A DNA stretch of 64,000 nt from Notolepis coatsorum. Taxonomy: Eukaryota > Chordata > Actinopteri > Aulopiformes > Paralepididae. Position 1 is the stretch's first letter. The number at the start of each line of letters is the position of its first letter. A program made the position numbers and the translations under genes. The notes beneath the pieces were generated by a model. It was not told where the DNA came from. It did not search any database and saw nothing but the letters and a program-made list of their open reading frames with translations. The stretch spans positions 23,856,471 to 23,920,470 of the forward strand of contig OZ020601.1 of NCBI GenBank assembly GCA_963971535.1, read 5' to 3'. Shown here piece by piece: positions 3,764-39,425 of this stretch.

Positions 3764-4082
3764 TCATACATGCAGACAGCAAGACTGTGTGTGAGCGTTA
3801 TTTCTCTTTTACAACCATTATGTTTCGGGGTCCAAACGTCCCTGCAAGAGTAGAGAACTCGGAGAGGAAGAAACCACAATACAGACCCAGACCACACACA
3901 ACATCCTGTACCACCCACATGCAAGCCCAGCATTTATCCATCCTAAACACACAGCACTCCTCAAGCCAACCTGGACATTATGCAGCAGCAATATATGCAG
4001 TGACCCTTAGGCACCGAAATGACTTCACATAGTCTGCAGAGAGCTGTCTGGAGAGAAGCAACGTTCCGCATCTGTTTTCAAT

Positions 4083-5407
4083 ACAGCCAGGACACAGAGG
4101 GTCAGAGATGCAGCCAGGACACAGAGGGTCAGAGATGCAGCCAGGACACAGAGGGTCAGAGATACAGCCAGGACACAGAGGGTCAGAGATACAGCCAGGA
4201 CACAGAGGGCCAGAGATACAGCCAGGACACAGAGGGTCAGAGATACAGCCAGGACACAGAGGGTCAGAGATACAGCCAGGACACAGAGGGTCAGAGATAC
4301 AGCCAGGACACAGAGGGTCAGAGATACAGCCAGGACACAGAGGGTCAGAGATACAGCCAGGACACAGAGGGTCAGAGATACAGCCAGGACACAGAGGGTC
4401 GGAGATACAGCCAGGACACAGAGGGTCAGAGATACAGCCAGGACACAGAGGGTCGGAGATACAGCCAGGACACAGAGGGTCAGAGATACAGCCAGGACAC
4501 AGAGGGTCAGAGATACAGCCAGGACACAGAGGGTCAGAGATACAGCCAGGACACAGAGGGTCAGAGATACAGCCAGGACACAGAGGATCAGAGATACAGC
4601 CAGGGCACAGAGGGTCAGAGATACAGCCAGGACACAGAGGGTCAGAGATACAGCCAGGACACAGAGGATCGGAGATACAGCCAGGACACAGAGGATCAGA
4701 GATACAGCCAGGACACAGAGGATCAGAGATACAGCCAGGACACAGAGGGTCAGAGATACAGCCAGGACACAGAGGATCGGAGATACAGCCAGGACACAGA
4801 GGATCAGAGATACAGCCAGGACACAGAGGGTCAGAGATACAGCCAGGACACAGAGGATCGGAGATACAGCCAGGACACAGAGGATCAGAGATACAGCCAG
4901 GACACAGAGGGTCGGAGATACAGCCAGGACACAGAGGGTCAGAGATACAGCCAGGACACAGAGGATCGGAGATACAGCCAGGACACAGAGGGTCAGAGAT
5001 ACAGCCAGGACACAGAGGATCGGAGATACAGCCAGGACACAGAGGGTCAGAGATACAGCCAGGACACAGAGGGTCAGAGATACAGCCAGGACACAGAGGG
5101 TCAGAGATACAGCCAGGGCACAGAGGGTCAGAGATACAGCCAGGACACAGAGGGTCAGAGATACAGCCAGGACACAGAGGATCAGAGATACAGCCAGGAC
5201 ACAGAGGGTCGGAGATACAGCCAGGACACAGAGGGTCAGAGATGCAGCCAGGACACAGAGGGTCAGAGATACAGCCAGGACACAGAGGGCCAGAGATACA
5301 GCCAGGACACAGAGGGTCAGAGATACAGCCAGGGCACAGAGGGTCAGAGATACAGCCAGGGCACAGAGGGTCAGAGATACAGCCAGGGCACAGAGGGTCA
5401 GAGATAC
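4083..5407. repeat. 27-bp minisatellite, about 49 copies, open in several frames
   Basis: Unit of 27 bp (ACAGCCAGGACACAGAGGGT plus 7 bases), present about 49 times with few substitutions, mainly GGT/GAT, CAG/CGG and GAC/GGC changes. Because 27 is a multiple of three and the unit has no stop in at least two frames, it gives artefactual open frames of over 450 codons with nonapeptide repeats such as SQDTEGQRY. There is no start context, splice signal or non-repetitive domain to support a gene. Confidence 0.95.
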
Positions 5408-5452
5408 AAAGGCCTCATCGTGACATTAAAGGTTCTGTTCTGATTTCTGGAC

Positions 5453-5865
5453 CCAGTCCTATTTCTCACTTAACCCTAGTCCTATTTCTCACTTAACCCT
5501 AGTCTTATTTCTCACTTAACCCTAGTCCTATTTCTCACTTAACCCTAGTCTTATTTCTCACTTAACCCTAGTCTTATTTCTCACTTAACCCTAGTCTTAT
5601 TTCTCACTTAACCCTAGTCCTATTTCTCACTTAACCCTAGTCTTATTTCTCACTTAACCCTAGTCCTATTTCTCACTTAACCCTAGTCCTATTTCTCACT
5701 TAACCCTAGTCCTATTTCTCACTTAACCCTAGTCCTATTTCTCACTTAACCCTAGTCCTATTTCTCACTTAACCCTAGTCCTATTTCTCACTTAACCCAG
5801 TCTTATTTCTCACTTAACCCTAGTCCTATTTCTCACTTAACCCTAGTCCTATTTCTCACTTAACC
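5453..5865. repeat. 23-bp minisatellite containing TTAACCCTAG
   Basis: About 18 copies of a 23-bp unit, TCCTATTTCTCACTTAACCC plus TAG, with C/T variation at one position. It includes a TTAACCCTAG core that resembles, but is not, the vertebrate telomere hexamer. The C-to-T variant alternates between units, suggesting homogenisation by unequal exchange. Confidence 0.95.
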
Positions 5866-9185: not shown

Positions 9186-9534
9186 TATCATCTGCATAGA
9201 GCACCCACCCCACCTCCTCCAATGTACAGTTTCTTCGTCAAATGTATATACTCTCTTTTTTAGACTCTTTTTGTATCACAAACAGTACTGTATTTGTAAA
9301 TCTGGTATGTCATAAATATATAGATGTAACCGTACTGTCTATCTGTATGTCATGTATGTGTATGTATATGTTATGATGAATTGAAAATGGGGGACCCTGA
9401 TGTAAACAAGACAAAAGTCTTTCTCTGGTCTGCATCCCCTTAACAATTGTCTGTATTGAGCTGTACTGTATTGTACCCATTCTGCAATCTGTTAATAAAA
9501 TGTTCAATCAATCAATCAAGCAGAGTACTCAGCT
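9186..9534 (+). mobile_element. LINE/SINE tail element, plus strand, (CAAT)n 3' end
   Basis: Longest plus-oriented copy of the tail family. It runs through the conserved core GGGGGACCCTGATGTAAACA and ends with AATAAAATGTTC then CAATCAATCAATC. The part at about 9310-9460 is the source sequence of the 158-bp tandem unit at 19849. No protein is encoded. Confidence 0.75.
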
Positions 9535-13883: not shown

Positions 13884-14035
13884 ATGTTTGAATGAATGAA
13901 AACTTTATTTAACAGATTGCAGAATGGGTACAATACAGTATGGCTCAATACATACAATTGTTAAGGGGATGCAGACCAGAGAAAGACGTTTGTCTTGTTT
14001 ACATCAGGGTCCCCCATTTTCAATTCATATCGATA
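13884..14035 (-). mobile_element. LINE/SINE tail element, minus strand
   Basis: Same tail family as at 1941-2113 and 37106-37500: GAATGAATG repeats, AAAACTTTATTTAACAGATT, then the conserved core ending in CCCCCATTTTCAATTCAT. It is oriented with its 3' end to the left. Confidence 0.75.
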
Positions 14036-16491: not shown

Positions 16492-18165
16492 CAATGAAGA
16501 TGGAGATATTCACAAGGGAAATGGTGAAGAAGTGGAGGAAGGAGAAAATGCAGATGATTGTATGGAGAGAAACGATGAAGAAGTGGAGGAAAGAGAGAAT
16601 GCAGATAATGCTATGGAGAGAGATGGTGAAGAAGTGGAGGAAGGAGAAAATGCAGATGATTGTATGGCGAGAAACGATGAAGAAGTGGAGGAAAGAGAGA
16701 ATGCAGATAATGCTACTGTATGGAGAGAGATGGTGAAGAAGTGGAGGAAGGAGAAAATGCAGATGATTGTATGGAGAGAAACGATGAAGAAGTTGAGGAA
16801 AGAGAGAATGCAGATAATGCTATGGAAAGAAATGATGGTGACACAACAACAAATAACTTGAATGCTCTCCTGTTGCCATTAAAATATCCCACTGATCCAG
16901 CCCATGTTCAGAAGCACAGCATAGACCACCACTCTGATAGATTTGTTGAGTTTTGTTGCTCTATTGGACCTTGACAACCAGTTCTAACTTATCCAAAGAC
17001 AGAGGGGCGTTCATTCCACAGGGAGTGGTATCAAGATAATCACTGGCTAGAATATTCTATGGAAAGTGATTCTATGTTTTGTTTTGGTTGCCGACTTTTC
17101 TTGAAAGAGAGGAAATATGATAATAAAGCAGCTTGGAGAACAGGGGGAGTTAACAATTGGAGAAAAGGCACAGAGAAAATTAAGGAGCATAAACAAACAG
17201 AAGCACATATGGTAAGCATGGTAAGATGGAGCAACTTCAAACAGAGACCACTGAAAGAGGCTTTCAGGAGGGCAGACGTAGAAGGCCAAGCCAAAAGAGA
17301 ACAGGAACGACAAAGAAACAGGGAGCTAATGACAAGACTGGTAGACATCACATTGTATCTTGCTGCCATTGTATCTTGGGGCGTTCAGGGGTCATGATGA
17401 AAGTGGTACAAAGGGAATTTCCTTGAACTTGTACAGCTACTTGCAAAATATGACTCCACCATCAAAATGCACCTTGATAAAATCAACCACATCCAGCCCC
17501 AAAAAAAAACCACAGACATCACTGTTGTCCTACAAGACACAGAATGACATAATCAGTGCCCATGCCACCTATGTCAGAGGAGTAATTCTCAAAGAAATGG
17601 AAGATTCCAAAATATTCTCCATTCTCTTGGATGAGACAACTGTTTCTCATGTCGAACAAGTGTCCTTTGTTGTTCGCTTTGTCCATCAGATGGAAATCAA
17701 GGAGAGATTTTTACAAGTTTGTGATGTCAGTGGAACAACGGCAAAAGAATTGGAGAATGTTGTGATGACATTCCTTGAGGAGAATGGATTAAAAGTGGAA
17801 GACATCAGGGGCCAAGGCTACGATGGAGCCGCAAATATGAGCGGAAGCTACAACGGTCTGCAGTCGCGAATTCAGAGCCACAATGAGAAAGCTTTATACG
17901 TGCACTGCCATGCCCACTGTCTCAACCTGGTCTTGGTGGAGAGTGCCAAATCAAGCCAGCATTTTGTTCGGTTTTTCAATTTAGTTGAAAATCTGTACAC
18001 TTTCATATCCAGATCTCCAAAACGCCACGCTGCGTTTGTGAAAATGCAACAGACCATGTACCCTGGCCAAAGACTCTGTGAACTGAAAAGGCTGTCTGAC
18101 ACACGGTGGGCGTGTAGAGAAGATGCTCTGAGATCCCTCTCTAAACTGGTTGGCGCGGCTAAACC
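16492..18165 (+). pseudogene. hAT transposase, 5' two-thirds (ZMYM1/TTF-type), broken
   Basis: The N-terminus is an acidic repeat made of alternating modules (EEVEEGENADDC, EEVEERENADNA) at 16500-16830. It is followed by a TTF-type zinc-finger region with FCFGC (about 17080), then typical hAT motifs: ILLDETT, RGQGYDGAANMSG, HCHAHCLNLVLV and SDTRWACREDALRS. Damage: an in-frame TGA at 16972-16974 and a frameshift near 17390, where FRGHDES begins in another frame. The coding continues at 28141 after the LINE insertion. These motifs belong to the DUF4371-type hAT group. Not functional as it stands. Confidence 0.9.
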
Positions 18166-19281
18166 TTCAACCTGTCTGTTTGACCCTCTCCCAGCAACTC
18201 TCATCAAAAAACTCTTCCCAACTCTAGGCCCTGCCCTACTCAATATCTTCAACACCTCTTTGTCTACTGGCATGGTGCCCCTGGCCTTTAAATCAGCTGT
18301 CATTAAACCACTACTTAAAAAACCGAACCTCGACCCTCTAATCTTGAAAAATTACAGACCTATCTCCAATCTCCCATTCCTATCCTAAAGTGTTAGAACG
18401 GATCGTCGCAACGCAACTTACTGACCATTTATCAAACAATAATCTTAATGAATCATTTCAATCTGGCTTTAGAGCCTTACACTCCACCGAAACGGCGGTT
18501 ACCAAAGTCACAAATGACTTACTGCTCTCTCTTGACTCAAACCTCACCTCTGTGCTCTTATTGCTTGATCTCAGTGCAGCCTTTGACACTATCGATCACT
18601 CGATTCTTCTAGGTCGGCTTGAGAACCATGTTGGCATTCGGGGTCTCGCACTAGCTTGGTTTAAATCCTATTTAACTGATAGAACACACTGCGTGGTCTA
18701 TAATGATTTAACATCTGAGACCCTCCCAGTGCAATGTGGTGTCCCACAAGGCTCTGTCCTGGGCCCTTTGCTATTTTCGATTTACATGCTACCCCTCGGC
18801 GATATCATACGCAAATTTGGCATAAACTTTCATTTTTACGCTGATGACACCCAATTATATATACCTATTAAGCCAAATGATTCCTCCCAACTACAAAACC
18901 TTGAGGCCTGCTTGCTTGCCGTCAAAAAATGGATGTCGCAAAACTTTCTACTCCTTAAAGGTGTCATGCAGTGCTATTCCTAGCACTATTTGGGCAACTT
19001 TACACACTTCCTGTGAGTCTATGTAACACATGTGTAATTTTTATTCCAAAAATAATCATTGTTTTATATTTCTAATCTTGTACTCAAAACCAGCATTTTT
19101 CAGCCTCATGAAATCAGGCTATTATTGGCTTGGCTCCACCCACACTTTGAGTGACAGCCACCCACCAAATAGCTCCGCCCATCTCCCCGTCATTCCATCC
19201 AGGTAGAGGTCTGAGGTCTTAGGTTTCAGGTTTTTATTTCGACACGCAAAAACATATACCGATTTTACTAACTAATACAAC

Positions 19282-21583
19282 ATGGCTGTACATTATGTTT
19301 GGGATCCAGAGAGCGACCCACAGTTTGATCCCGAAGAAGAAGAAGAAGGCGATTTGCTACAGCGAGGCTTACATTACATCGTTTCCGATTGGTAAGTTGA
19401 TTAATTGCACTATTAGTTACTTACTGTTATATAATAGTTGTGTACTTCTGTCGCGCGCGGCCCGTCGAAAACACACACTCACTAACGTTAGATTGTACTG
19501 ACACTAACCCCCAAACAACAGCGATCGAGGCTTACGTTACATCGTTTCCGATTGGTAAGTTGATTAATTGCACTATTAGTTACTTACTGTTATATAATAG
19601 TTGTGTACTTCTGTCGCGCGCGGCCCGTCGAAAACACACACTCACTAACGTTAGATTGTACTGACACTAACCCCCAAACAACAGCGATCGAGGCTTACGT
19701 TACATCGTTTCCGATTGGTAAGTTGATTAATTGCACTATTAGTTACTTACTGTTATATAATAGTTGTGTACTTCTGTCGCGCGCGGCCCGTCGAAAACAC
19801 ACACTCACTAACGTTAGATTGTACTGACTGACACTAACTGTACTTGACGATTGAAATTGGGGGACCCTGATGTAAACAAGACGAAAGTCTTTCTCTGGCC
19901 TCCATCATAACAGTTGTTGGTATTGAGCAATACTGTAGCAATAGAAATATAGTATGTCATAAATATAGAGATGTAGCAGTACTGTCTATCTATATGTTAC
20001 CATGACGATTGAAATTGGGGGACCCTGATGTAAACAAGACGAAAGTCTTTCTCTGGCCTCCATCATAACAGTTGTTGGTATTGAGCAATACTGTAGCAAT
20101 AGAAATATAGTATGTCATAAATATAGAGATGTAGCAGTACTGTCTATCTATATGTTACCATGACGATTGAAATTGGGGGACCCTGATGTAAACAAGACGA
20201 AAGTCTTTCTCTGGCCTCCATCATAACAGTTGTTGGTATTGAGCAATACTGTAGCAATAGAAATATAGTATGTCATAAATATAGAGATGTAGCAGTACTG
20301 TCTATCTATATGTTACCATGACGATTGAAATTGGGGGACCCTGATGTAAACAAGACGAAAGTCTTTCTCTGGCCTCCATCATAACAGTTGTTGGTATTGA
20401 GCAATACTGTAGCAATAGAAATATAGTATGTCATAAATATAGAGATGTAGCAGTACTGTCTATCTATATGTTACCATGACGATTGAAATTGGGGGACCCT
20501 GATGTAAACAAGACGAAAGTCTTTCTCTGGCCTCCATCATAACAGTTGTTGGTATTGAGCAATACTGTAGCAATAGAAATATAGTATGTCATAAATATAG
20601 AGATGTAGCAGTACTGTCTATCTATATGTTACCATGACGATTGAAATTGGGGGACCCTGATGTAAACAAGACGAAAGTCTTTCTCTGGCCTCCATCATAA
20701 CAGTTGTTGGTATTGAGCAATACTGTAGCAATAGAAATATAGTATGTCATAAATATAGAGATGTAGCAGTACTGTCTATCTATATGTTACCATGACGATT
20801 GAAATTGGGGGACCCTGATGTAAACAAGACGAAAGTCTTTCTCTGGCCTCCATTGATTGATAATTTCATTCACCCTCAAATCTACTAGGTGCACGTGCGG
20901 AAATTGTGAACGGATGCCAACAGAGACTGAGAATGTATGCTGCATGGAAGTTCCACAGGTAAAGTAGTAACACAAACTTGCATCTTGGTAGCACTGAAAA
21001 CCATGCATATGGCTAACGATTTAATTTTCTATATATATAGGTCAGACGTCGAATTAACCAGGAACCAACTGGACTACTGTGCATGGTTGATCATCCGGGA
21101 TTGGATCCAGTGTGCTTCAACCCCTATACCATCCAAATGGCAACTAATATCTACAAGGCAGATTTTGGCCGGATACCAGAAAGCGGAATCAATAAGTAAA
21201 TAATATTTATTACAGATTTATATATTTTTTTACAGGTGTTTCTCCATCTTGCATCTCTCAGACTATACTAATCTTTCTTGCAAACACAATCTAATCCTTA
21301 TTGCACATCACATATAATCAATGCTTGCTACTGTCCAATGACATGACATGACAAATGGTTATTTCCCAGCTTTTTTTTTTATTTTATTTGTGCATAAATA
21401 TAATACTTGATTTTCTTCAGCCGTTTCAGATATATCGCGTACAGATGCTTTGTCGCGTGGTGCTTCGGCTACTTAGGCCGCAGAGTGAGAGTAGTAATCC
21501 CATCCTGTGTCGTGGTTCGAATCCGCACAGAATTTCCGGATGTTGATGGTGTCTATACTGGCTTCAGACCGGTACAGGATTGA
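19282..21583 (+). CDS. P2X7 ballast-domain-like protein of the Kolobok (4 exons)
   Basis: Exons 19282-19391, 20889-20958, 21041-21195 and 21421-21583 give 165 residues. All introns are GT-AG and all junction phases agree (the W37 and N112 codons are split). The N-terminus is acidic (DPEEEEEGD, residues 16-24). Then come W37-CTCGNC (38-43), a CC pair (54-55), C74 and C85. The C-terminal block reads RYIAYRCFVAW (115-125), followed by IPSC (138-141) and RIRTEFP (145-151). This cysteine pattern and the AYRC-x3-W, PSC, RIR-x-EFP series match the zinc-binding cytosolic ballast domain of vertebrate P2X7 receptors. No membrane segment is present, so it is not a channel. Its last exon overlaps the transposase coding end. 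An AATAAA lies at 21863. Role in transposition unknown. Confidence 0.85.
19359..19830. repeat. 163-bp tandem array containing exon 1 end and splice donor
   Basis: About 2.9 copies, period 163. Each unit repeats the 3' part of exon 1 (GGCTTACGTTACATCGTTTC), its donor GGTAAGT and following intron sequence. The second and third units are each preceded by CCCCCAAACAACAG, a fair 3' splice site. They thereby create potential 33-nt exons at 19522-19554 and 19685-19717. Confidence 0.9.
19849..20852. repeat. 158-bp tandem array derived from a LINE tail
   Basis: Units start at 19849, 20007, 20165, 20323, 20481, 20639 and 20797: six complete copies and a partial, nearly identical. The unit holds GGGGGACCCTGATGTAAACA and TATGTCATAAATATAGAGAT, both found in order in the dispersed tail element at 9310-9440. 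It sits in intron 1 of the P2X7-like gene. Confidence 0.95.
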
Positions 21584-24500
21584 ATCGTGACACATAGCCG
21601 GCAACCGCTTCTTCCATGGAAGGCCTGTCGAACTGTGCGCACAAAGGTTCTGGGATGGCAATCGCCTCTACCACCTGGATATATTGTTGGGGGTCACGAA
21701 GGACGAAGTCAAAGAGTAGCGCCATCAGCTGGTTGACATAGTCTGTAAATGAGAAATTGTTATTTGTTTTGTCATGTTAAAAAGGTTATTATTTATTCAA
21801 TTTATTGTATTCCACTGTAAGTGGAAATATTTTTCTATTTATATAGGTCATGTGTGTGCAATAATAAATGTTGATATTTTTACTTACTGAATGTCGCTGG
21901 GATTTTCCTTGGTTTTATTGTGTGTCCACCTTTTTTGGCCTTTGGAAAACTCATCTTGTACGCCGGCTCTCCAGAAGCGTTTATGGCTTGCTGGCGATTT
22001 GAGTTTTCATTGAAATGCATGGCAGCTAGGTATAGTCTGAAAGGAAAATTTCAATAAGCACAAGCAATATATTTGTAGTTGATCTGAGGTTATCTAATGC
22101 AACATAATGAGTTATTTGACAAATCAGGAGTCCATAATTAGTCATTTGTACACAATATAAAATACCTGCAAAGCATTCCTATGTACGAAAAAACCACGTT
22201 TTTTGGGGCAAAACGTAAAATCACACTGTGATAGGACTCCAATGAAGACGTTTGATGGTGTGGACTCAATTTGGCGACATCTTTGATGATCCTTGTGTTT
22301 AGCAAAACCTTCTCGAGCTGGTGGGCCGGTTTTGAGTCTAAAGTAAAAAAGAAATTGCATTCAGATATTTCATTAGAGTATATTACAGTAGATTAGAATT
22401 ATTCAAGCAAGTATACATTTGTAAATCACACCAATCTAGAATGAGGACATAAATAAATATTTTGAGTATATATTCATGATGAAAGACAGACAGACATACC
22501 AGGTTTAACCCACTTGCTACTATCTCTTGATACACGGTCAGCATGAAGACAACGCGGATAGAGTGGTTCTTCGTCGTGTTCATGTACATTCATCATGTGA
22601 TTGAGACATGACTTCCACCTAGCAACCCTCTCATCGGCAGACTTCGACGTGGCAGCTGTCCAGTAGAGGTGGTTTGAAATGTGCAGGCGCCACTTTTTTA
22701 TGACCTTGCAGTCTTTCGCCTGTGCAATTTTGTCAAGCTTCTTAGACAGACCTTGAATTACATAACATAACATAACATTACATAACAGTCGTATGACATA
22801 CATGACATACAGATAGACAGTACTGCTACATCTACATTTTTTGACATACCAGATTTGCAATTACAGTACTGGTTGGGTGGGGGGGGGGGGGGGGGGGGGG
22901 TTGGTAGGAGGGGTGGAATTGAATGTGGGATGCCTTTCGACATACCTTTGGCCACGTGCCACACATCGTAGAAGTGTTTGATGTCGTGATCTCTCAGGTA
23001 CTTTTGGATCTGCGGGTGACGGTCTGTGACAATACAGTCCAAGGTCACGGATTTGGCGTCCAGAAGAGCGAGGCTTCTCCTCAAGCCCTCCAGTTCCATA
23101 TGGTAGCTGCCTCCCACCTCATTGCTCTGGAACAAGGAAGGGAAGATCAATGAAATAGCCTTTTCAAAATTCCACAATTAACATTTCCTAACCCCCGCTC
23201 ACACACACAGCCAGCCAGACCACTTCACACCCCGCTCACACACACAGCCAGCCAGACCACTTCACACCTACAGCGATTCAAGATTCAAGACCGAGAGCTT
23301 TGTGTTCGTTTGAGCACAATGAAGGGTGCAGTGTCTCTTCAGACTTGTTAATTACCTGAATTAGTTGGTCGTCTATGACATGATTGGTGGCGAGTTCCAT
23401 CACAGAGTAACTTCCGTACTTAGCACTGTGGCCTGTTGAAAATAATAATAACAATTTCAATCAATGTAGTGCAATATTAAAAATGTATTCATAAAGTAGG
23501 AATTTGTCATTGGGGAGCTTTTTCTAACCTGGACTATCGGCTCGCATGTCACCGCCGATTATCACGCTTTCTTTCTCGCTTAATCTGGCGAGGGTAACGT
23601 CTTGGTCCTTGGTCCACAAACTTAGAACAGCAGGTTCCAAGAACTTCTTGGCGTGTTCCCGAAACGCTCTGTACTTTATTGTGGAGACGTGTAACGCATT
23701 TAGGACCTAAAAGAATAAATGAATAACGCTTTGTTAATATGCACGTGTGAATCACAAACAAAAACATAATGTATATCTGACTTGTCAATCAAATCAATCA
23801 AATCAAATACCTTCTCCATTTGGGTGAAAGATGAGCCAGTGAAAAATACTGCTGCAGAAAGCTGAATATTTCCAGCTGGTGTGATGCCGATGAGAGGCTG
23901 ACTCGCCCATTTACGGCTGTATTTACAACCGGGGCAAACTTGGGAGACAGCCAAGAAGGTCCCTCGCGTAGTTTTGGTGATATGACATTGAGCATTGCAC
24001 ACCGGACACTGTTGAAATAATTCCAGTAGACTGTCTTCGTAAACGATGTATTTCTGGACCTCATAGATTGGTTTTGACGGTTCCCTGCTCGAGAAAAACA
24101 CAAATAAATAACACGGCACAACTATATAGCTTTTGTATTTTTACGGGCCATGGAGATGTTTGTAACAACTAACTTACGCTAGAATCGAGGGCTCGCTAAT
24201 CAAAGAGTCAATGTTGAAAGTGGAATCCTGCGGCGGCTCTGGAACATCGATCGAGCTGTCGGTCACTCCATCGTCATCGTCATCAGACTCCAGTCGTGGT
24301 CTTTTACTGGGTCTAAACCCCTTCACAGGTGTTGACGTGGATGGTCCCTGTTGATTAGACCAGTATCCAGTATTTTGTGTCCCCACCGAGACCGACACGA
24401 CTTTCGCCTGAACACCTATTTACAAAACATAGTTTAGTCAAACAAGGGATTTATTGATAACTTTGCTCACTCACTCACTCACTCACTCACACACTCACAC

Positions 24501-25509
24501 ATTGTGACCTGCTCTGGCGTAACAGCAACATGGTCACCACACTAGAGCTAGCATTGTGACCTGTGTAACGCCAACATGGGTCACCACACTAGAGCTAAAT
24601 TTGATTTGCAAATACAGTACTGTTTGTGATACTGAAGGAGTCAAGAAAAGGGAGTATATACATTTGACTGTATATACTGTATATATACTGTATATTGACA
24701 ACCATACTGGGTAATTTACATTGGAGGTGGGGGGGGGGGGGGGGACACTATACAAACAATCCACATTCCTTTACAGCTTTGGGTGAAAGCGGTGGGTGAA
24801 GGGGGCCAATCTAAACAATTCTGGGTCACATTATTACACATTATTACATTACATCACACTGAGTTACAAACCTACCTTGACTCTTGACATGCGAACGAAG
24901 TGTTTTCATAGAAAGCTGTGTACCAACAGAACGAATCTTTGGGTTGTCTGTCTGGCAACTGAAGTCCCTTGAAGCAGGAGAAAGGCGTACATTGCCGCTG
25001 GAACTTGTGGTGGCCTAAGAGTTACCAAATCGTAAATCAATTACAATATAATACAAGCCACTAAATATAACGTTACCTTGTTTACCTCTCACTAGTTGTG
25101 TTCTTTTATTTAGAAGTTATGACTAGCTTGCTTCAATAGTTTTCTATAACGTTACTTTATAAAGAGCAGCAGTTACTATAACGTTAGATGGTATTTATGA
25201 TAACATATCTCACACGACATATCTACTTACTATTTCTTGTGTCGGGTCGCGTATTGAAGGCACAGCTCTTTTGGTTAGCACCAACATGGAGACCACTCCA
25301 GCATCAAAAATACCTTGATTGGTGACGTCGTCGGCGGAGAAATGTGCAGTACAAACCCGAGTATTAGATGTTGCAACGGAACTTGGAGGGTCACCAAAAA
25401 GGAACTTGTTCCATTGTTGGCGAAGTTCGGCATCAACGGGGAAACTGTGCAAAGACTTCTCGGTAGCTCTACAACCAGGAACATTACATCTGCAGGGTTT
25501 GCTGCTCAT
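21564..25509 (-). CDS. Kolobok transposase, THAP plus DDE (11 exons)
   Basis: Exons, in minus-strand order: 25509-25231, 25014-24876, 24415-24178, 24084-23811, 23706-23529, 23432-23356, 23126-22946, 22751-22500, 22337-22166, 22036-21888, 21742-21564. They total 2,118 nt, 705 residues, with every intron GT-AG and every phase matching. The THAP finger has C8, C13, C53 and H56 with P24, W33 and F57. A second Cys cluster follows (CPVCNAQC, CPGC). Likely catalytic residues are D363 in GGDMRADSPG, D430 in TDRH and E573 in SSLESYH; FYDVWHVAKG is a family signature. The start at 25509 is chosen because it places THAP at the N-terminus; a further in-frame ATG lies upstream. The exon-4 acceptor has an in-frame alternative 3 nt away. 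No stop or frameshift is seen. Confidence 0.92.
22756..22915 (-). mobile_element. LINE-tail fragment in a transposase intron
   Basis: Contains GACATACAGATAGACAGTAC and GACATACCAGATTTGCAATT, matching in reverse the tail element near 9290-9350, and ends in a poly(G) run at 22876-22900. Confidence 0.6.
24590..24770 (-). mobile_element. Second LINE-tail fragment in a transposase intron
   Basis: Reverse-complement match to 9205-9305 (TTTGCAAATACAGTACTGTT, GGGAGTATATACATTTGACT), with a local TATACTGTA expansion and a G run at about 24727-24744. A (CACT)n tract at 24464-24500 precedes it. Confidence 0.6.
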
Positions 25510-26589
25510 CGTGAAATTGAGGCGAGTGACGGCAATTTCTGTTTCCAGGTTGTATCGGCTCCAGGTACCAAGAATGGAGGCGGGCATTAGGTAAAACCAC
25601 ACAGCCAATCACATCACCTTGCGCTATAAACAGCGCCCTGTGACGTTGCCCAGCTCGTCAAATCAACATGACCTGATTTACTAGAGGCAAACAGGGGATG
25701 GGCTGTAGCTGAGGAATTCGTCAATATAGTATTTAGGCCCAAAAACACATTGATACGAACTCCTATTACTATAATACAATGCTAGAGACTGAAAAATGAC
25801 ATTTATAACGCATAGCCCCTTTAATGCAGATAAAACTGAGATGTTAATTGTTGGCCCCCCAAACCACAGAGGCCTGTTTCAGGACATCTCCCTCAACTTT
25901 GATACCTGTCATGTATCCCAGAGCTCCACCATAAAAAACCTCGGAGTCATTTTTTATTACTCCCTCTCATTTAATGCACATATAAAAAATGTCACCAAAA
26001 TTGCATTCTTCCATCTTCGTAATATCGCAAAAATACGCCCCATTTTAACTCTGGCTGATGCTGAAACCCTGATTCATGCTTTTGTCTCATCACGTCTGGA
26101 CTACTGTAATGCACTTTTTTCAGGCCTACCTAATTCAAGCATCAAAAATCTTCAACTCGTGCAAAATGCGGCTGCACGGATACTAACTAGAACTAGAAAA
26201 TTTGATCACATCACACCAGTTTTGTCCGCCCTACATTGGCTTCCTATCCAAGCCCGCTCTGACTTTAAAGTGCTACTCCTCACCTACAAAATTTTAAATG
26301 GGCTTGCACCGCTCTATCTATCCGATCTCATCTCCCGATACTCGCCCGCTCGTGCTCTGCGCTCACAAAATGCGGGGCTTCTATCGACCCCTAGGGTTAA
26401 AAAGAAATCCGCCGGCCACAGAGCCTTTGTCTACCGCGCTCCCTACCTGTGGAACAAATTACCTGCCGTCATCAGGGGCGCCTGCTCTGTCGAAGCTTTT
26501 AAATCCTTGCTTAAGACTCATCTTTTCTCTCTCTCCTTCAACCTACCTTGATCTCACCTGGTCGGGGACTGACCTTTAGATTAATCTGT

Positions 26590-30866: not shown

Positions 30867-31757
30867 TATGTTCTACTACCACGTCGCAAAAGTTTATGTT
30901 GTTTTCAAGAGCAAAGAATATTAACTTTGATGATGTGAGGATATCTACTGTCAGTGGCTCTTGTATAGAGAGAGTCACTGAGTATAAATATCTTGGCCTG
31001 TGGCTTGACGAGAAATTTACATTTAAGTTCCATGTGGACAATCTTGCCTCTAAACTGCGACAGAAAATTGGTTTCCTGTACAGAAACAGATACAATTTTC
31101 CTCTATTTAGTAGAAAAAGAATAGTTGAATCAGTCTTCTTATCAGTTTTGGACTATGGTGATGTAATTTATAGGCATGCTGCGGCATCAACTCTTAAACC
31201 TCTGGATTCTGCATATCACTCAGCTATCAGATTTATAACTGGTGACAGATATGATACTCACCATTGTGTCCTGTATGATAGGGTGGGTTGGCCTTCTCTT
31301 GCAGAAAGGCGCAACAAACACTGGTATTTATTTATTTTTAAAGCCCTTATTGGTAAACAACCTGTTTATATCTCTTCACTGTTAGATTGGAATATTGGAA
31401 CCTATTCAACTCGATCGAATGACTGGATGGTTCTTAGGGTTCCTCAAATTTGTTCTGAGCTAGGGAAGTCAGCCTTTTCCTTTGATGCCTCATGGAATGT
31501 CCTTCAACTCTCTCTGAAATTGGAGGTTCTCCCTTCCCTTGGAATGTTTAAACGTATGATTTCAGACCATTGTGTGACTACCTGTAACTGTTTTAGTTGA
31601 TCTTTTTAAATTATTTTGAAACGTTTTTAATTTTTTACTCTGGTGTTTAAATGTCTGTGAATATTGTTTTTATTATGTACTGTTTACATTTTGTACAATC
31701 GTTGTTCCTGTAAATGAGGGAAACCTCAGATGCTTACGATTTTAAATAAAGGTTGAA
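30867..31757 (+). pseudogene. Jockey-like LINE reverse transcriptase, C-terminal part
   Basis: An open frame to 31600 carries YKYLGLWLDEKFTF, LASKLRQKIGFLYRNR, SVFLSVLDYGDVIYRHAA, SAIRFITGDRYDTHHC and a C-terminal CSELGKSAF block. These are the thumb-downstream motifs of a non-LTR reverse transcriptase distinct from the L2 family here. The catalytic core is missing, so it is 5'-truncated. The 3' UTR ends near 31757 with TTTAAATAAAGGTTGAAATG. Relatives of this end occur on the minus strand at 34325 and 53757. Confidence 0.8.
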
Positions 31758-31833
31758 ATGAAAAATGTAAACATGCACCAGCACAAAATTCCACGAGATC
31801 AAGCATTTCTTGTGGCTTTGCAGCCAGAGAACT

Positions 31834-34297
31834 CACCTGTCGTCCTCACCTGTCGTCCTCACCTGTCGTCATCACCTATTGTCCTCACCTATTGTTCTCA
31901 CCTGTCATCCTCACCTGTCGTCCTCACCTGTCTTCCTCACCTGTCTTCCTCACCTGTCGTCCTCACCTGTCGTCCTCGCCTGTCGTCCTCACCTGTCTTC
32001 CTCACCTGTCGTCCTCGCCTGTCTTCCTCACCTGTCGTCATCACCTGTCTTCCTCACCTGTCACCTATCGTCTTCACCTGTCGTCCTCACCTGTCGTCCT
32101 CACCTGTCTTCCTCGCCTGTCGTCCTCGCCTGTCTTCCTCACCTGTCGTCCTCACCTGTCACCTGTCGTCCTCACCTGTCACCTGTCGTCCTCACCTGTC
32201 TTCCTCGCCTGTCGTCCTCACCTGTCGTCCTCACCTGTCGTCCTCACCTGTCGTCATCACCTGTCGTCCTCGCCTGTCGTCCTCACCTGTCGTCATCACC
32301 TGTCGTCCTCACCTGTCGTCCTCACCTGTCTTCCTCACCTGTCGTCCTCACCTGTCGTCCTCACCTGTCGTCATCACCTGTCGTCCTCGCCTGTCGTCCT
32401 CACCTGTCGTCATCACCTGTCGTCCTCGCCTGTCGTCCTCACCTGTCTTCCTCACCTGTCGTCATCACCTGTCGTCCTCGCCTGTCGTCCTCACCTGTCT
32501 TCCTCACCTGTCGTCCTCGCCTGTCTTCCTCACCTGTCGTCATCACCTGTCGTCCTCGCCTGTCTTCCTCACCTGTCTTCCTCACCTGTCGTCATCACCT
32601 GTCGTCCTCGCCTGTCGTCCTCGCCTGTCGTCCTCGCCTGTCGTCCTCACCTGTCTTCCTCACCTGTCGTCCTCACCTGTCGTCCTCACCTGTCGTCATC
32701 ACCTGTCGTCCTCGCCTGTCGTCCTCACCTGTCTTCCTCACCTGTCGTCCTCGCCTGTCTTCCTCACCTGTCGTCCTCACCTGTCGTCCTCACCTGTCTT
32801 CCTCACCTGTCTTCCTCACCTGTCGTCCTCACCTGTCACCTGTCGTCCTCACCTGTCTTCCTCGCCTGTCTTCCTCACCTGTCGTCCTCACCTGTCGTCC
32901 TCACCTGTCGTCCTCACCTGTCGTCCTCACCTGTCTTCCTCGCCTGCGTCCTCGCCTGTCGTCCTCACCTGTCTTCCTCACCTGTCGTCCTCACCTGTCG
33001 CCCTCACCTGTCGTCCTCACCTGTCGTCCTCACCTGTCTTCCTCACCTGTCGTCCTCACCTGTCGCCCTCACCTGTCGTCCTCACCTGTCGTCCTCACCT
33101 GTCGTCCTCACCTGTCGTCCTCACCTGTCGCCCTCACCTGTCGTCCTCACCTGTCGTCCTCACCTGTCGTCCTCACCTGTCGTCCTCACCTGTCGTCCTC
33201 ACCTGTCGTCCTCACCTGTCTTCCTCACCTGTCTTCCTCACCTGTCGTCCTCACCTGTCACCTGTCGCCCTCACCTGTCGTCCTCACCTGTTGTCCTCAC
33301 CTGTCACCTGTCGTCCTCGCCTGTCGTCCTCGCATGTCGTCCTCACCTGTCGTCCTCACCTGTCACCTGTCATCCTCACCTGTCACCTGTCGTCCTCACC
33401 TGTCATCCTCACCTGTCACCTGTCGTCCTCACCTGTCGTCCTCACCTGTCGTCCTCACCTGTCGTCCTCACCTGTCGTCCTCACCTGTCACCTGTCATCC
33501 TCACCTGTCGCCTCGCCTGTCGTCCTCACCTGTCGTCCTCACCTGTCGTCCTCACCTGTCGTCCTCACCTGTCACCTGTCATCCTCACCTGTCGTCCTCA
33601 CCTGTCACCTGTCATCCTCACCTGTCGTCCTCACCTGTCGTCCTCACCTGTCACCTGTCGTCCTCACCTGTCGTCCTCACCTGTCGTCCTCACCTGTCGT
33701 CCTCACCTGTCACCTGTCGTCCTCACCTGTCGCCTCGCCTGTCGTCCTCACCTGTCGTCCTCACCTGTCGTCCTCACCTGTCGTCCTCGCCTGTCGTCCT
33801 CACCTGTCGTCCTCACCTGTCGTCCTCACCTGTCATCCTCACCTGTCACCTGTCGTCCTCGCCTGTCGTCCTCACCTGTCGTCCTCACCTGTCGTCCTCA
33901 CCTGTCGTCCTCACCTGTCACCTGTCGTCCTCACCTGTCATCCTCACCTGTCACCTGTCGTCCTCGCCTGTCGTCCTCGCCTGTCGTCCTCACCTGTCGT
34001 CCTCACCTGTCGTCCTCACCTGTCGTCCTCACCTGTCACCTGTCGTCCTCGCCTGTCGTCCTCGCCTGTCGTCCTCACCTGTCGTCCTCACCTGTCGTCC
34101 TCACCTGTCGTCCTCACCTGTCGTCCTCACCTGTCACCTGTCGTCCTCACCTGTCATCCTCACCTGTCACCTGTCGTCCTCACCTGTCATCCTCACCTGT
34201 CACCTGTCGTCCTCACCTGTCGTCCTCGCCTGTCGTCCTCACCTGTCATCCTCACCTGTCACCTGTCGTCCTCGCCTGTCGTCCTCACCTGTCGTCC
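31834..34297. repeat. 13-bp minisatellite, about 190 copies, open in three frames
   Basis: Unit ACCTGTCGTCCTC with GTC/TTC/ATC and CAC/CGC variants and frequent 8-bp short units (ACCTGTC). Period 13 is not a multiple of 3, so all three plus frames read the same 13-residue cycle and none contains a stop for about 2.5 kb. Pyrimidine-rich on the plus strand. No gene evidence. Confidence 0.95.
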
Positions 34298-34324
34298 TCT
34301 TTTTCATTGAAGATCGATGACACA

Positions 34325-34690
34325 CAATATTTTGAGTATATGGGTACATTTTCTGTTTCAGAACTGAGAACTTTGTGTAGAATAAACCTCATTTCAACTC
34401 GTGAGACACTGAGCTTACCCTCATTTACAGTGACGACGAGCTTACAAAATAAAGATGCAGTTATCAGTAGATTCATATATATAGGCACAACAAATAAGAA
34501 TAAACAATAAACAATCAGCTAATACAGTTACAAGTATATGTTAAAAATGTTATGCAACAAACGAAGGAAGAACCTTCAGCTTCAGAGTCAGTTGGAGGGC
34601 ATTCCAGGTGTTGGAACAATCAAAGGATGTTTTTCCTAATTCAGAGCAAACTGGAGGAAGCCTAAGAACCAAGAGGACATTATATGGTGG
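34325..34690 (-). pseudogene. Jockey-like LINE 3' end, minus strand
   Basis: The minus-strand frame near 34680-34560 reads LRLPPVCSELGKTSFD and WNALQLTLKLKVLPSFV, the same C-terminal block as at 31430-31560, followed by a 3' UTR. 5'-truncated relic. Confidence 0.7.
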
Positions 34691-35217
34691 ATGACGACCT
34701 CACTGTGTCAGCCCGCCACAGCAGAGGACATAATGGGAAAAGTGCAACAGACATATCAGTTAATCTCCATGACATTAGAATACAGAGTGAATACATGAAA
34801 CCCAAGTGACGCACAGCCCTGCCGTGTCGTGTTGTTGCTATAAATGTCCCTGTTCCTCTCTGACTCACAGCGTCTCGCCGCCACGCGCTCATCATGCTGA
34901 TGGCATCGGTAAACACTATCACCGCACAGCGACAGCTTGTACGTCATCGCAGGGTCAGGGGTCAGGAGCACCCAGCAGCGTGTCATCCCCGGGGGCTGTG
35001 TACCGCCAGGCTCAGCGGCGTCTGTTATGACGCGTTTGGCGGAATTAATCACAGTTGGTGGAACGTCGCATGGGGGGGGGGGTTCATAATTGACATTTGG
35101 AGTACCAGAAGGGCTGAACAACCTCTCATGTCAACCCAGTATGCATGGTATATGCTTGATCTGTTCATGCTGATGGACAGAGTCTTACATGCTTATCAAC
35201 GTACAAAGGAACTTCCC
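34691..35217. other. No recognisable feature
   Basis: Unique-looking sequence with short open frames only, between a LINE relic and a minisatellite. Confidence 0.4.
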
Positions 35218-36173
35218 ACCACAGTCAGGACAGCTGAAACCATCACAGTCAGGACAGCTGAAACCATCACAGTCAGGACAGCTGAAACCATCACAGTCAG
35301 TACAGCTGAAACCACCACAGTCAGGACAGCAGAAACCATCACAGTCAGGAAAGATGAAACCATCACAGTCAGTACAGCTGAAACCATCACAGTCAGGACA
35401 GCTGAAACCATCACAGTCAGTACAGCTGAAACCATCACAGTCAGGACAGCTGAAACCATCACAGTCAGGACAGCTGAAACCACCACAGTCAGTACAGCTG
35501 AAACCACCACAGTCAGGACAGCAGAAACCATCACAGTCAGGAAAGATGAAACCATCACAGTCAGTACAGCTGAAACCATCACAGTCAGGAAAGATGAAAC
35601 CACCACAGTCAGGACAGCTGAAACCATCACAATCAGGACAGCTGAAACCATCACAGTCAGGACAGCTGAAACCATCACAGTCAGGACAGCTGAAACCACC
35701 ACAGTCAGTACAGCTGAAACCATCACAGTCAGTACAGCTGAAACCACCACAGTCAGTACAGCTGAAACCACCACAGTCAGGACAGCAGAAACCATCACAG
35801 TCAGGAAAGATGAAACCATCACAGTCAGTACAGCTGAAACCATCACAGTCAGTACAGCTGAAACCACCACAGTCAGGACAGCTGAAACCATCACAGTCAG
35901 TACAGCTGAAACCACCACAGTCAGGACAGCAGAAACCATCACAGTCAGGAAAGATGAAACCATCACAGTCAGTACAGCTGAAACCATCACAGTCAGGAAA
36001 GATGAAACCACCACAGTCAGGACAGATGAAACCATTACAGTCAGGACAGCTGAAACCATCACAGTCAGTACAGCTGAAACCACCACAGTCAGGACAGCTG
36101 AAACCATCACAGTCAGGACAGCTGAAACCATCACAGTCAGGAAAGATGAAACCACCACAGTCAGGACAGCTGA
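35218..36173. repeat. 24-bp minisatellite, about 40 copies
   Basis: Unit ACAGCTGAAACCATCACAGT plus CAGG, with AAGATG, GTACAG and CACCAC variants arranged in a higher-order pattern. Period 24 keeps frames open on both strands: hydrophilic TAETITVR on plus and hydrophobic VLTVMVSA on minus. Both are judged artefacts. Confidence 0.95.
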
Positions 36174-36222
36174 AACGAAGGTTATTCTATAACCCTAGTT
36201 ATATGAGTATAGCGAGCGCTCT
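36174..36222 (+). repeat. Arm of 49-bp perfect inverted repeat
   Basis: Exact reverse complement of 37790-37838, and includes AACCCTAGTTATATGAGTAT. It directly abuts the 24-bp minisatellite. Confidence 0.95.
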
Positions 36223-36323
36223 GCTCTATTGGAACTATCCCTTTAATCATACTAAAAATGAAAAAACGTTCTCCACATGTACACACCTACTCACCTCTGC
36301 CTGGCCACACCCATATCCGTTAC

Positions 36324-36330
36324 TATATAA
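36324..36330 (+). promoter_or_regulatory. TATA-like box in the DIRS-like spacer
   Basis: TATATAA followed by GCAGGGTCG, inside the spacer between the arms, where a promoter would be expected for a retroelement. Inferred from sequence only. Confidence 0.3.
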
Positions 36331-36403
36331 GCAGGGTCGTGGCAACACAATCAGCTCCTTCCCCAGTCTTTCACCGCCAAAGGAAAGACTGTGGGGTCCT
36401 CAG

Positions 36404-37770
36404 CAGTGTTGGGACTAACGCGTTACAAAGTAACGCGTTACAGAAACGAAGTTACTTTTTGCCGCAACTAGTACTCTAACGCATTACTTTTGAAATTCAG
36501 TAACGCTACTTACGTTACTGAATGGTTTGTTAGTTCGTTACTGCGTTCTTTTTATGTAGATTCATAGCGAGCGTCCTTATTTCGCCTGCGTTTGTTTTGT
36601 TTACTGTAGACTGAAAGGCGCTATATAAAACGAAGTATTATTATTATTATTATTATTATTTCTTTCCGTAGCCTCATTCTGGTTTTCGCACTTCTGATTG
36701 GCCACTGACGTTCTGAAAGAAATAGACGCTCTCTACAGTAAACAACAAGAGGACGCTCGCTATGAATCTACATAATAAGAACGCAGTAATAATAACGAAC
36801 TAACAAACCATTTAGCAACTACTTGGAGAGATAATTAATATACAACATGGAAACGAGATAAAGAACATGTTTGAAGGGCTGCTGGAGTCAACTGGACTAA
36901 CGTTACATCTCGACCACCGCAGACTGGTGACGGTGAGTGCAATGTGTTCACTGAAACTCAAGATCAACGGATTTTGACTGTACGAAATCTGCCAGGGAAT
37001 CTCATAATACTAATCAAACAATATAAATATAGTCCTTTCATGCACAATTGATATCCTAACTATTCTAACGTTGCAATGCTTTGATTGATATCTTAAACAA
37101 CGCTGCAAGATGGTTATGAATGAATTAATGAATGGATGAATGAATGAATGAATGAAAACTTTATTTAACAGATTGCAGAATGGGTACAATACAGTACGGC
37201 TCAATACATACAATTGTTAAGGGGATGCAGACCTGAGAAAGACGTTTGTCTTGTTTCCATCAGGGTCCCCCATTTTCAATTCATATAGACATTTATGACA
37301 TACACAACATACATGACATTTATGGCATAGGGACATATAGGTATTTAGTACTGATACATTTGTGACATAAGCGGTATTCAAATATACAGTACTGTTACCC
37401 CTAGATCCTGACAGAGTATATACATATGATGGGGAGGGGACTGTACATTAGGAGGGGGTGGGTGGGTGGGAGAGAAATATACATACAGCGGGGAGGGAAT
37501 ATATAATGAAACGCTCTAGACCACATTGCTTAGCAGAGTTCGGTGATGTGAATGGAAACTGTCAAGTTGATCAACCGATTTTGAGTATATGGGGCATGGG
37601 ACTTGAGCAATTTTAATTTTTAATTTTTTTTTAAATAACTAAATAGTTACTTTTCACAGTAACTCATTACTTTTGGGTGTAAGTAACTAGTACAGTAACG
37701 AAGTTACTTTGAAATGAAGTAACTAGTAAAGTAACTGAGTTACTATTTTTCAGTAACTAGCACAACACTG
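36404..37770 (+). mobile_element. hAT non-autonomous element, copy 1
   Basis: Starts CAGTGTTGGGACTAACGCG and ends CTAGCACAACACTG, with a perfect 8-bp target duplication GTCCTCAG at 36396-36403 and 37771-37778. The subterminal AACGCGTTAC/GTAACTAGT motifs are repeated many times. An internal inverted repeat lies at about 36528-36613 against 36727-36810. It contains a LINE-tail insertion at about 37106-37500. It has an unoccupied TTAA at 37093-37096, where copy 2 carries a MITE. No transposase. Confidence 0.92.
37106..37500 (-). mobile_element. LINE/SINE tail element inside hAT copy 1
   Basis: GAATGAATG repeats, then AAAACTTTATTTAACAGATT and the conserved core, in minus orientation; one of the longer copies of the family (about 395 bp). 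hAT copy 2 lacks it at the matching place. Confidence 0.8.
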
Positions 37771-37847: not shown

Positions 37848-39425
37848 CAGTGTTGTGCTAGTTACTGAAAAATAGGAACTCAGTTACTTTACTAGTTACT
37901 TCATTTAAAAAGTAACTCAGTTACTTTACTAGTTACTTACACCCAAAAGTAATGTGTTACTGTGAAAAGTAACTATTTAGTTACTAAAAATAAAATAAAA
38001 AGATTGCTCTCATTAATGCCCTTACAGATACTCAAAATCTGTTGATCAACTTGACAGTTTCCATTCACATCACTGAACTCTGCTAAGCAATGTGGTCTAG
38101 ATACAAACACAAATGTTGTCCCGACATAATAAGAAATGCGCTGTGCCTAATTGTATCGCCGCTTAGGTTGAAGGAACAGCCTTGATGTCTGTCGCCAGAG
38201 CATTTCATTATAACCGTCTTGCAACGTTGTTTAAAGGGGAACTATTTTACTATTTCTTTCACTATTTGGGCACTTTTACACAATTCCTGTGAGTCTATGG
38301 AACACCTCTGTAATATATATATTTTTTTTATTCATTGTTTTGTATTTCTAATCAAGTCCTCAAAAACAGCATTTTTCTACCTCAAGATCTTAAGCCGTTT
38401 TGAGCTGATGTGGCCTGGGGTGCAGCCACAATGGTAATGGTTCTGGTTCGCCTGAACATTATCATGCAGCGGTGTCTTTCTGACATCACATATCGCGCAC
38501 ATTTTCAAATGACTCAGTTCAGTGAGGGTGAATATTGTGAGAGGAGAATTGGAAGAATGCGCCAATATGAGAATTTTGAGACATAGATCATATTAATATA
38601 AGTTCACATAGCTAGGAAACAATGCTAAACACTCAAAAAGGCCATTTATAAGATAGTTCCCCTTTAAGATATCAATCGTGCATTGCAACGTTAGAATAGT
38701 TAGGATATCAATTGTGCATGAAAGGACTATATTTATATTGTTTGATTAGTATTGATGAGATTCCCTTCCAGATTCTTACAGTCAAAATCTGTTGATCAAC
38801 TTTGCATTCACATCACTGAACTCACCAAAGTCTGCGGTGGTTGAGATGTAACGTTAGTCCAGCCCCTCAAACATTTTCTTTAGCTCATTTCCATTTTGTA
38901 TATTCTCTCTCCAAGTAGTTGGAAAACGTGAAGTGTTCCGTCCCATTTGCCGTGTGCCGCCTGGTGATGCTAACTAGATCCCCGAAAGCGAGTGGCTTAC
39001 TGGCTTCGGATGAGTCCTGTTAACGTTAGACTCAGCTACTAGCTTCGTTGAAGCATGGGCAGTAGATAGTATCTTTGAGCCAAAACACAAATGACATTTA
39101 ACTAAAACATTATTTTATTTGTGCTCGATAAAAGAGAAATAGTGATAATATCCATGTGTACAAACGCGAGTAGTGGGCGCTGCCATGACAGTCAAGTCTA
39201 TAGTAAACAAAACACGCCCACAGCACAGCGTGTCCCGCAGGTGAGGTGACACACAGACAGGAGTCAGGAGGACTGCGCTGGATCACTATCGCTCGCTACC
39301 AATCTACATAAAAAGAATGCAGTAACGAACCATTCAGTAATGGTAACGGCGTTACTGAATTTAAAAAGTAATGCGTTAGAGTACTAGTTACCGCCTAAAG
39401 TAACGGCGTTACTGTCCCAACACTG
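37848..39425 (-). mobile_element. hAT non-autonomous element, copy 2
   Basis: Starts CAGTGTTGTGCTAGTTAC and ends TACTGTCCCAACACTG, the same family as copy 1 but reversed. Target duplication is TAAATCAT at 37840-37847 against TAAATCGT at 39426-39433 (one mismatch, so older or mutated). It contains the Kolobok-type MITE at 38235-38663. Confidence 0.9.
38235..38663 (+). mobile_element. Kolobok-type MITE, 429 bp
   Basis: Flanked by TTAA at 38231-38234 and 38664-38667; termini AGGGGAACTATTTT and AAGATAGTTCCCCT. Its left 170 bp match the left end of the Kolobok at 18959 (ACTATTTGGGCACTTTTACA, CCTGTGAGTCTATGGAACAC), and its right end matches the Kolobok right end (CAATGCTAAACACTCAAAAA, CCATTTATAA). 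hAT copy 1 has the empty site TATCTTAAACAAC. Confidence 0.93.

Follow-up and report, generated by a model that had tools for sequence, protein, structure and literature searches.

Results

A Kolobok element that carries two genes

What does a protein related to the ballast of the P2X7 receptor do inside a transposon? The question is raised by an element in a 64,000-nucleotide stretch of the Notolepis coatsorum genome (contig OZ020601.1, positions 23,856,471 to 23,920,470 of the forward strand; here called the window), where a transposase gene, KolT, converges on a smaller gene, KolX, that encodes such a protein. We think it likely that the element represents a young, recently multiplied two-protein Kolobok of the Kol0 lineage, in which KolX most likely serves as an accessory factor for efficient spread, acting in trans with KolT.

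An earlier note on this DNA had read from the sequence a TTAA duplication enclosing an 11-exon minus-strand gene of 705 codons and a 4-exon plus-strand gene of 165 codons, with every intron GT-AG and the phases compatible, and the rebuilt gene models reproduced all of this exactly (Table 1). KolT runs from 25509 to 21564 on the minus strand and has a single terminal stop, and KolX runs from 19282 to 21583 on the plus strand. An automatic splice model with other junctions around KolT exons 7-8 ran into a homopolymer and was dropped. Excision of the element in silico restores the frame of a host long interspersed nuclear element (LINE), ...SQNFLLL being followed directly by NADKTEMLIV... with no internal stop; upstream of the element this frame matches RVT_1 (Pfam, 1.4e-28), and downstream of it Pfam gave no match. 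The element termini read AG...CT and form an imperfect terminal inverted repeat (TIR) of about a dozen bases.

Pfam matched KolT to THAP (5.6e-11) and, over residues 243-390, to a Mutator-like transposase (5.9e-8, above the cut-off), while a sequence search of the Protein Data Bank (PDB) gave weak THAP matches only (0.031 and 0.071). Its motifs follow in the order GGDMRADSPG (361), VTDRH (428), DVWH (449), C504-H507...C523-H525 and LESYHS (572), the arrangement that marks a Kolobok, namely a DDD/E transposase whose C/DxxH signature is separated from the last E by a zinc finger; the putative catalytic residues were placed by motif rather than by alignment to a Kolobok profile.

KolX matched P2RX7_C in Pfam (3.3e-18) and four P2X7 sequences in the PDB (9.8e-12 to 6.8e-10). 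The gene models and the Pfam and PDB matches bear out the earlier identification of a Kolobok that encodes a THAP-DDE transposase together with a P2X7 ballast-like protein, and the profile search that the earlier note had named as a check matched THAP, Mutator-like transposase and P2RX7_C alike. Seven cysteines at zinc-ligand positions (C38, C40, C43, C54, C55, C74 and C141) are invariant among KolX, the host P2X7 described below and two PDB P2X7 sequences. The guanine-nucleotide contacts given for the ballast in the text of Rump et al. (2020, PMC7016195) are R546, H547, R574, R578 and K583; in the PDB alignment two of the five are kept (the equivalents of R546 and R578), the others reading Y for H547, V for R574 and D for K583. 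Scans of viral contigs with the KolT and KolX proteins confirmed no relative.

According to the text of PMC9587614, Kolobok elements of the Kol0 lineage encode KolX besides a transposase, occur with KolX in vertebrates, annelids, cnidarians and sponges, and have termini of the general Kolobok form, 5'-RR and YY-3'. The present element fits this lineage and its small protein fits KolX, as judged from predicted proteins and ends. Like the Kol0 element Kolobok-1_XT as portrayed there, it combines a DDE transposase with KolX, TTAA targets and 5'-RR/YY-3' ends; it differs as a family belonging to its own genome, in which two minisatellites are internal to the element and KolX copies number at least 226 by our estimate (see below). 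The likeness to Kolobok-1_XT draws on its published description rather than on its sequence, the Kol0 placement on features other than a transposase tree, and the identification of KolX on the published similarity to P2X7 rather than on a KolX reference sequence. KolobokP also carries a second gene on the opposite strand, but there it encodes a His-Me nuclease in place of KolX, and the element has long terminal direct repeats (text of PMC9587614). This identity was rejected: the second gene here matches P2RX7_C only (Pfam), and a same-strand comparison of the first and last 1,000 bp of the element found no direct repeat longer than 15 bp.

Copies across the genome and linkage of the two genes

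Copies were searched for in the same 3.42-Gb genome (4,787 contigs). From 4,166 first-look candidates a DNA search scored 19 copies, including that in the window, and all of them make up the near-complete set; compared piece by piece, they are 98-100% identical. KolX exons 2-4 were found in all 19. Both ends were resolved in 14, each of them flanked by TTAA on both sides, and whole frames were present for KolX in 16 of 19, for KolT in 11 and for both genes in nine (eight without L025, which has lost one KolX splice donor). The KolT start codon is lost in L011, the KolT frames of L005, L009 and L017 contain stops or a frameshift, and the stretches of L023 and L027 end within the element, so that their KolT frames cannot be judged. 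The TTAA-flanked copies with both genes that the earlier note proposed to look for are therefore present in this genome. On the two points on which it had staked its reading, the plus-strand gene is not consistently absent from the copies, and the P2X7-domain match is there.

Genome-wide pattern counts, which allowed up to 2 mismatches and gave 0 each time with the reversed pattern, placed KolX exon 4 at 133 sites and a diverged form of it at 184, KolX exon 3 at 213, KolT exon 8 at 251, the 5' end with TTAA at 341 and the 3' end with TTAA at 947. Since 42 sites are identical to the first exon-4 pattern and 3 mismatches from the second, we infer at least 226 copies of KolX exon 4. In a Pfam genome search, all 149 KolX exon-4 matches among the best 150 of 614 candidates were free of stops. 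As a separate observation, one cluster (C7:102167816-102187566) contains a tandem series of four KolX copies and as many element 5' ends at a spacing of 3.2-4.2 kb, with one KolT pattern and one 3' end among the matches listed, and looks multimer-like.

Linkage was assessed in the first 100 listed KolT exon-8 sites and the first 100 listed 5' ends. Of these 100 KolT sites, 96 have KolX exon 4 no farther than 1.5 kb away and 97 no farther than 3.4 kb: in 80 it stands 700-1500 bp upstream, and among the other 20 a diverged exon 4 stands at 1066-1076 bp in 16 and at 3304 bp in one. KolX follows 51 of the 100 5' ends, 43 of them together with the exact KolT pattern and eight alone; KolT alone was found at none, and neither gene at 49. 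A listed 3' end could be paired with 77 of the 5' ends, giving 44 short elements (1.1-3.2 kb, of which 26 measure 2088-2098 bp) and 33 long ones (4.9-9.1 kb). The exact KolX exon-3 pattern lies behind the 5' end in all 33 long elements, in none of the 44 short ones and in 18 of the 23 unpaired. The short class, recognized from end and exon patterns alone, is gene-less and, if mobile, must be moved in trans. Among diverged copies, two that were read further (L039 with L058, and L040 with L059) have lost KolT exons 3-7 and kept KolX exons 2-4, and L029 and L030 continue into KolT exon 7. KolX travels with the element in many copies of this one genome.

Substitution pattern of KolX

Selection was examined in KolX exons 2-4 of 48 copies, comprising 19 top scorers of a hidden Markov model (HMM) search and 29 copies chosen by DNA alone. 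Changes shared by at least two copies were 10 synonymous and 2 nonsynonymous, a departure from neutrality (p 1.3e-5), whereas singleton changes were 1 synonymous and 7 nonsynonymous, with no significant departure (p 0.69); the two classes differ (p 0.0045). For KolX of the diverged copy L039 the counts are 9 synonymous and 2 nonsynonymous changes (p 5e-5 against neutrality), and for KolT exons 8-11 they are 15 and 16 (p 8.6e-4), which points to a weaker constraint than that of KolX. This pattern is as expected if KolX were kept between rounds of transposition and drifted after insertion, and suggests that selection keeps it.

An excess of exon over intron divergence

In six diverged copies (L029, L030 and L037-L040) the difference from the window copy over 20880-22921 is about 5 times as high in exons as in introns. 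With long homopolymers excluded, exon and intron differences are 41/1120 and 7/877 in L039, 51/1120 and 8/877 in L029, and 45/1120 and 9/877 in L040; in twelve intermediate loci with full coverage they are 13-18/1120 and 2-4 of about 870. Intermediate and diverged loci have changes in common and are not independent. Over a longer stretch, L039 gives 61/1538 in exons and 12/1424 in introns (p 1.6e-8 assuming independence of sites, which fails). Close copies lack the excess (L018, p 0.76; L022, 2 exon and 5 intron changes). The divergence is patchy, concentrated at about 21410-21721, 21881-22021 and 22634-22720; it spares KolX exons 2-3 and KolT exon 9, most KolX exon-4 changes are synonymous, and the non-coding 3' end is diverged too (5.7%). 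Such an excess could arise by chance from ordinary mosaic conversion. A bolder idea, which we do not claim, is that spliced transcripts served as templates for exchange.

KolX and the host P2X7 gene

The genome also contains one ballast match that is much stronger than those of KolX (L028; 4.8e-60 in the genome search, 1.9e-63 on re-search) in a single open exon of 179 codons, with a P2X-receptor match of 0.0085, below the Pfam cut-off, about 0.8 kb upstream. This locus we take to be host P2X7. The ballast there is 32% identical to KolX and lies in one unsplit exon, whereas three introns, inside codon W37, after Q60 and inside codon N112, cut KolX within the ballast or at its edge; capture of the ballast from such an element would therefore need an intronless intermediate or intron loss. 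The text of Kojima and Bao (2022, PMC9587614) reports similarity of KolX to P2X7 residues 476-595, the ballast, and derives P2X7 from the fusion of KolX to a P2X4-like gene. The exchange between transposon and receptor that the earlier note considered in either direction is, as descent of the ballast from KolX, already a published conclusion.

Insertion site and other features of the window

Features of the element are collected in Table 1. Absent from the earlier note are the 20-bp coding overlap, the two internal minisatellites and the 429-bp relative described below. The insertions are nested over 16975-26551 of the window: the Kolobok lies within the LINE (RVT_1), and the LINE sequence continues the open frame of a DUF4371 match, which we take to be probably a hAT/ZMYM-like gene. 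A 429-bp TTAA-flanked non-autonomous relative lies at 38235-38663, its ends matching the two ends of the element at 80% and 70%. In the window and in copies L001, L005 and L009-L027, extra units of the 163-bp array create a possible 33-nt cassette exon in KolX, with 0 to 3 exact cassettes per copy among 19 copies. The 158-bp minisatellite unit is akin to dispersed repeats at 9298-9470, 13934-14024, 37190-37280 and 2041-2108. Long minisatellites open in several frames occupy 31746-34510, 3978-5496 and 34864-36418. An Rfam scan of the window at gathering thresholds gave no match.

Table 1 Features of the Kolobok element, in window coordinates
Feature	Position	Strand	Basis
Kolobok (Kol0-type) element, 6,862 bp	18959..25820		Uninterrupted LINE frame without the element; 19 near-full copies
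Left TTAA target duplication	18955..18958		Read from sequence
Right TTAA target duplication	25821..25824		Read from sequence
Left terminus, imperfect TIR, starts AG (5'-RR)	18959..18971	+	
Right terminus, imperfect TIR, closes in CT (YY-3')	25808..25820	-	
KolX exon 1 (acidic N-terminus; ends inside codon W37)	19282..19391	+	Gene model
KolX exon 2 (CTCGNC...CC zinc cysteines)	20889..20958	+	Gene model, Pfam
KolX exon 3	21041..21195	+	Gene model
KolX exon 4 (AYRC...PSC...RIRTEFP)	21421..21583	+	Gene model, Pfam, PDB matches
Tail-to-tail coding overlap of KolX and KolT, 20 bp	21564..21583		Gene models
KolT exon 1, THAP domain	25231..25509	-	Gene model, Pfam
KolT exon 2	24876..25014	-	Gene model
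KolT exon 3	24178..24415	-	Gene model
KolT exon 4 (CPVC...CPGC)	23811..24084	-	Gene model, motif
KolT exon 5, GGDMRADSPG (putative first catalytic D)	23529..23706	-	Gene model, motif
KolT exon 6	23356..23432	-	Gene model
KolT exon 7, VTDRH (putative second D) and DVWH (C/DxxH signature)	22946..23126	-	Gene model, motif
KolT exon 8, C-H...C-H cluster	22500..22751	-	Gene model, motif
KolT exon 9, LESYHS (putative catalytic E)	22166..22337	-	Gene model, motif
KolT exon 10	21888..22036	-	Gene model
KolT exon 11 and stop	21564..21742	-	Gene model
Tandem array, 163-bp unit x 2.9; every unit with KolX exon 1 end and splice donor	19363..19828		
Hypothetical 33-nt in-frame cassette exon, copy 1 (AG, 33 nt, GTAAGT)	19522..19554	+	
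Hypothetical 33-nt in-frame cassette exon, copy 2	19685..19717	+	
Tandem array, 158-bp unit x 6.4, in KolX intron 1	19845..20853		

Discussion

The reading of the element, its two genes and its TTAA sites as a Kolobok follows from the gene models, the Pfam and PDB matches, the LINE frame, the copies and the linkage. Transposases of such transposons bind the element ends through THAP domains and cut and paste into TTAA. KolT, with its THAP and DDE domains, would do the same here, and KolX, a putative zinc-stabilised relative of the P2X7 ballast, would act alongside it as a helper in trans. We infer transposition itself, the partnership of KolX with KolT rather than an action on the host, the fold of KolX and its biochemical role. 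The accessory function that the earlier note had assigned to the small protein gains from the 96/100 linkage and, subject to the sampling discussed next, from the substitution pattern, and stays a predicted role, one that KolX probably does perform for the Kolobok.

Several observations weigh against this. The signal of selection comes mostly from the 19 loci with top HMM scores, a choice that favours conserved proteins, and the 29 copies chosen by DNA alone (5 nonsynonymous, 3 synonymous) are indistinguishable from neutrality (p 0.26). Most synonymous KolX changes fall on one subfamily branch and are confined to exon 4; the copies are related and their subfamilies mosaic, which makes the neutrality tests rough, and the difference in constraint between KolX and KolT exons 8-11 is not significant (p 0.08). 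Among the 100 listed KolT sites, two have no listed KolX and one has it 10215 bp away. Retention of KolX without KolT exons 3-7 fits a role in trans, but also a KolX with some other use.

That last point leads to the readings that compete with an accessory role in transposition. KolX might serve the element outside transposition proper, by repressing the transposase or shielding the element from host silencing. Linkage and substitution pattern fit any beneficial role, and because KolX is a gene of its own, converging on KolT with overlapping coding ends, antisense regulation is possible too; we regard this as unlikely, though worth keeping in mind. It is improbable that the family acquired a ballast gene of the host (P2X7 or nanor-like) and carries it as KolX, a functionless passenger: the genome does have a P2X7 gene with this domain (L028) and the DNA-chosen copies do not reject neutrality, but KolX shares only 32% identity with the host ballast and is interrupted by introns where the host gene is not, shared changes are 10 synonymous against 2 nonsynonymous, and the wide distribution of Kol0 given in the text of PMC9587614 strains the idea of such an acquisition. 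That both gene models arose as fortuitous strings of open exons is scarcely conceivable, refuted as it is by the Pfam and PDB matches and by exon lengths and splice sites conserved in most of the 19 copies.

How an accessory KolX might act can be considered beside known proteins. The P element, which is not known to target TTAA, is one comparison. P element and THAP9 transposases share with KolT an N-terminal THAP domain and an RNase H-type transposase, but the P element has a GTP-binding insertion domain built into its transposase and uses guanosine triphosphate (GTP) as cofactor (text of PMC7776569). The P2X7 ballast (P2RX7_C; PDB 6u9v and 9e3q) shares with KolX the seven zinc cysteines and the equivalents of R546 and R578, whereas KolX is free-standing, differs at the other three contact positions and is split by introns. 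Nanor and other ZCD proteins are, like KolX, short free-standing ballasts with a similar partial loss of residues that contact guanosine diphosphate, and differ in being described as host genes (text of PMC7016195); nanor has been read as a likely domesticated KolX (text of PMC9587614). It is conceivable, as a long shot, that KolX is a guanine-nucleotide-responsive subunit supplying in trans the GTP-binding domain that the P element has built in, and that the ballast was first a nucleotide switch of a THAP-DDE transpososome and later came to serve P2X7; what suggests this is only the P2X7 relatives and the GTP cofactor of the P element, with two of five contacts kept.

The pairing of a Kolobok transposase with KolX, and the kinship of KolX with the P2X7 ballast, have been known since 2022; what is new is the young family and the copy-level data in this genome. 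In the passages of PMC9587614 that we consulted, neither the intron caveat nor a copy-level selection analysis of KolX came up; we do not claim that such an analysis is missing from the literature. This young family combines whole KolX and KolT frames, several subfamilies and numerous short derivatives within one genome, which makes it a good system in which to test KolX. Such a test of its role in the transposon also bears on the original purpose of the ballast, and KolX can be compared with its supposed descendant, the host P2X7 ballast, within a single genome.

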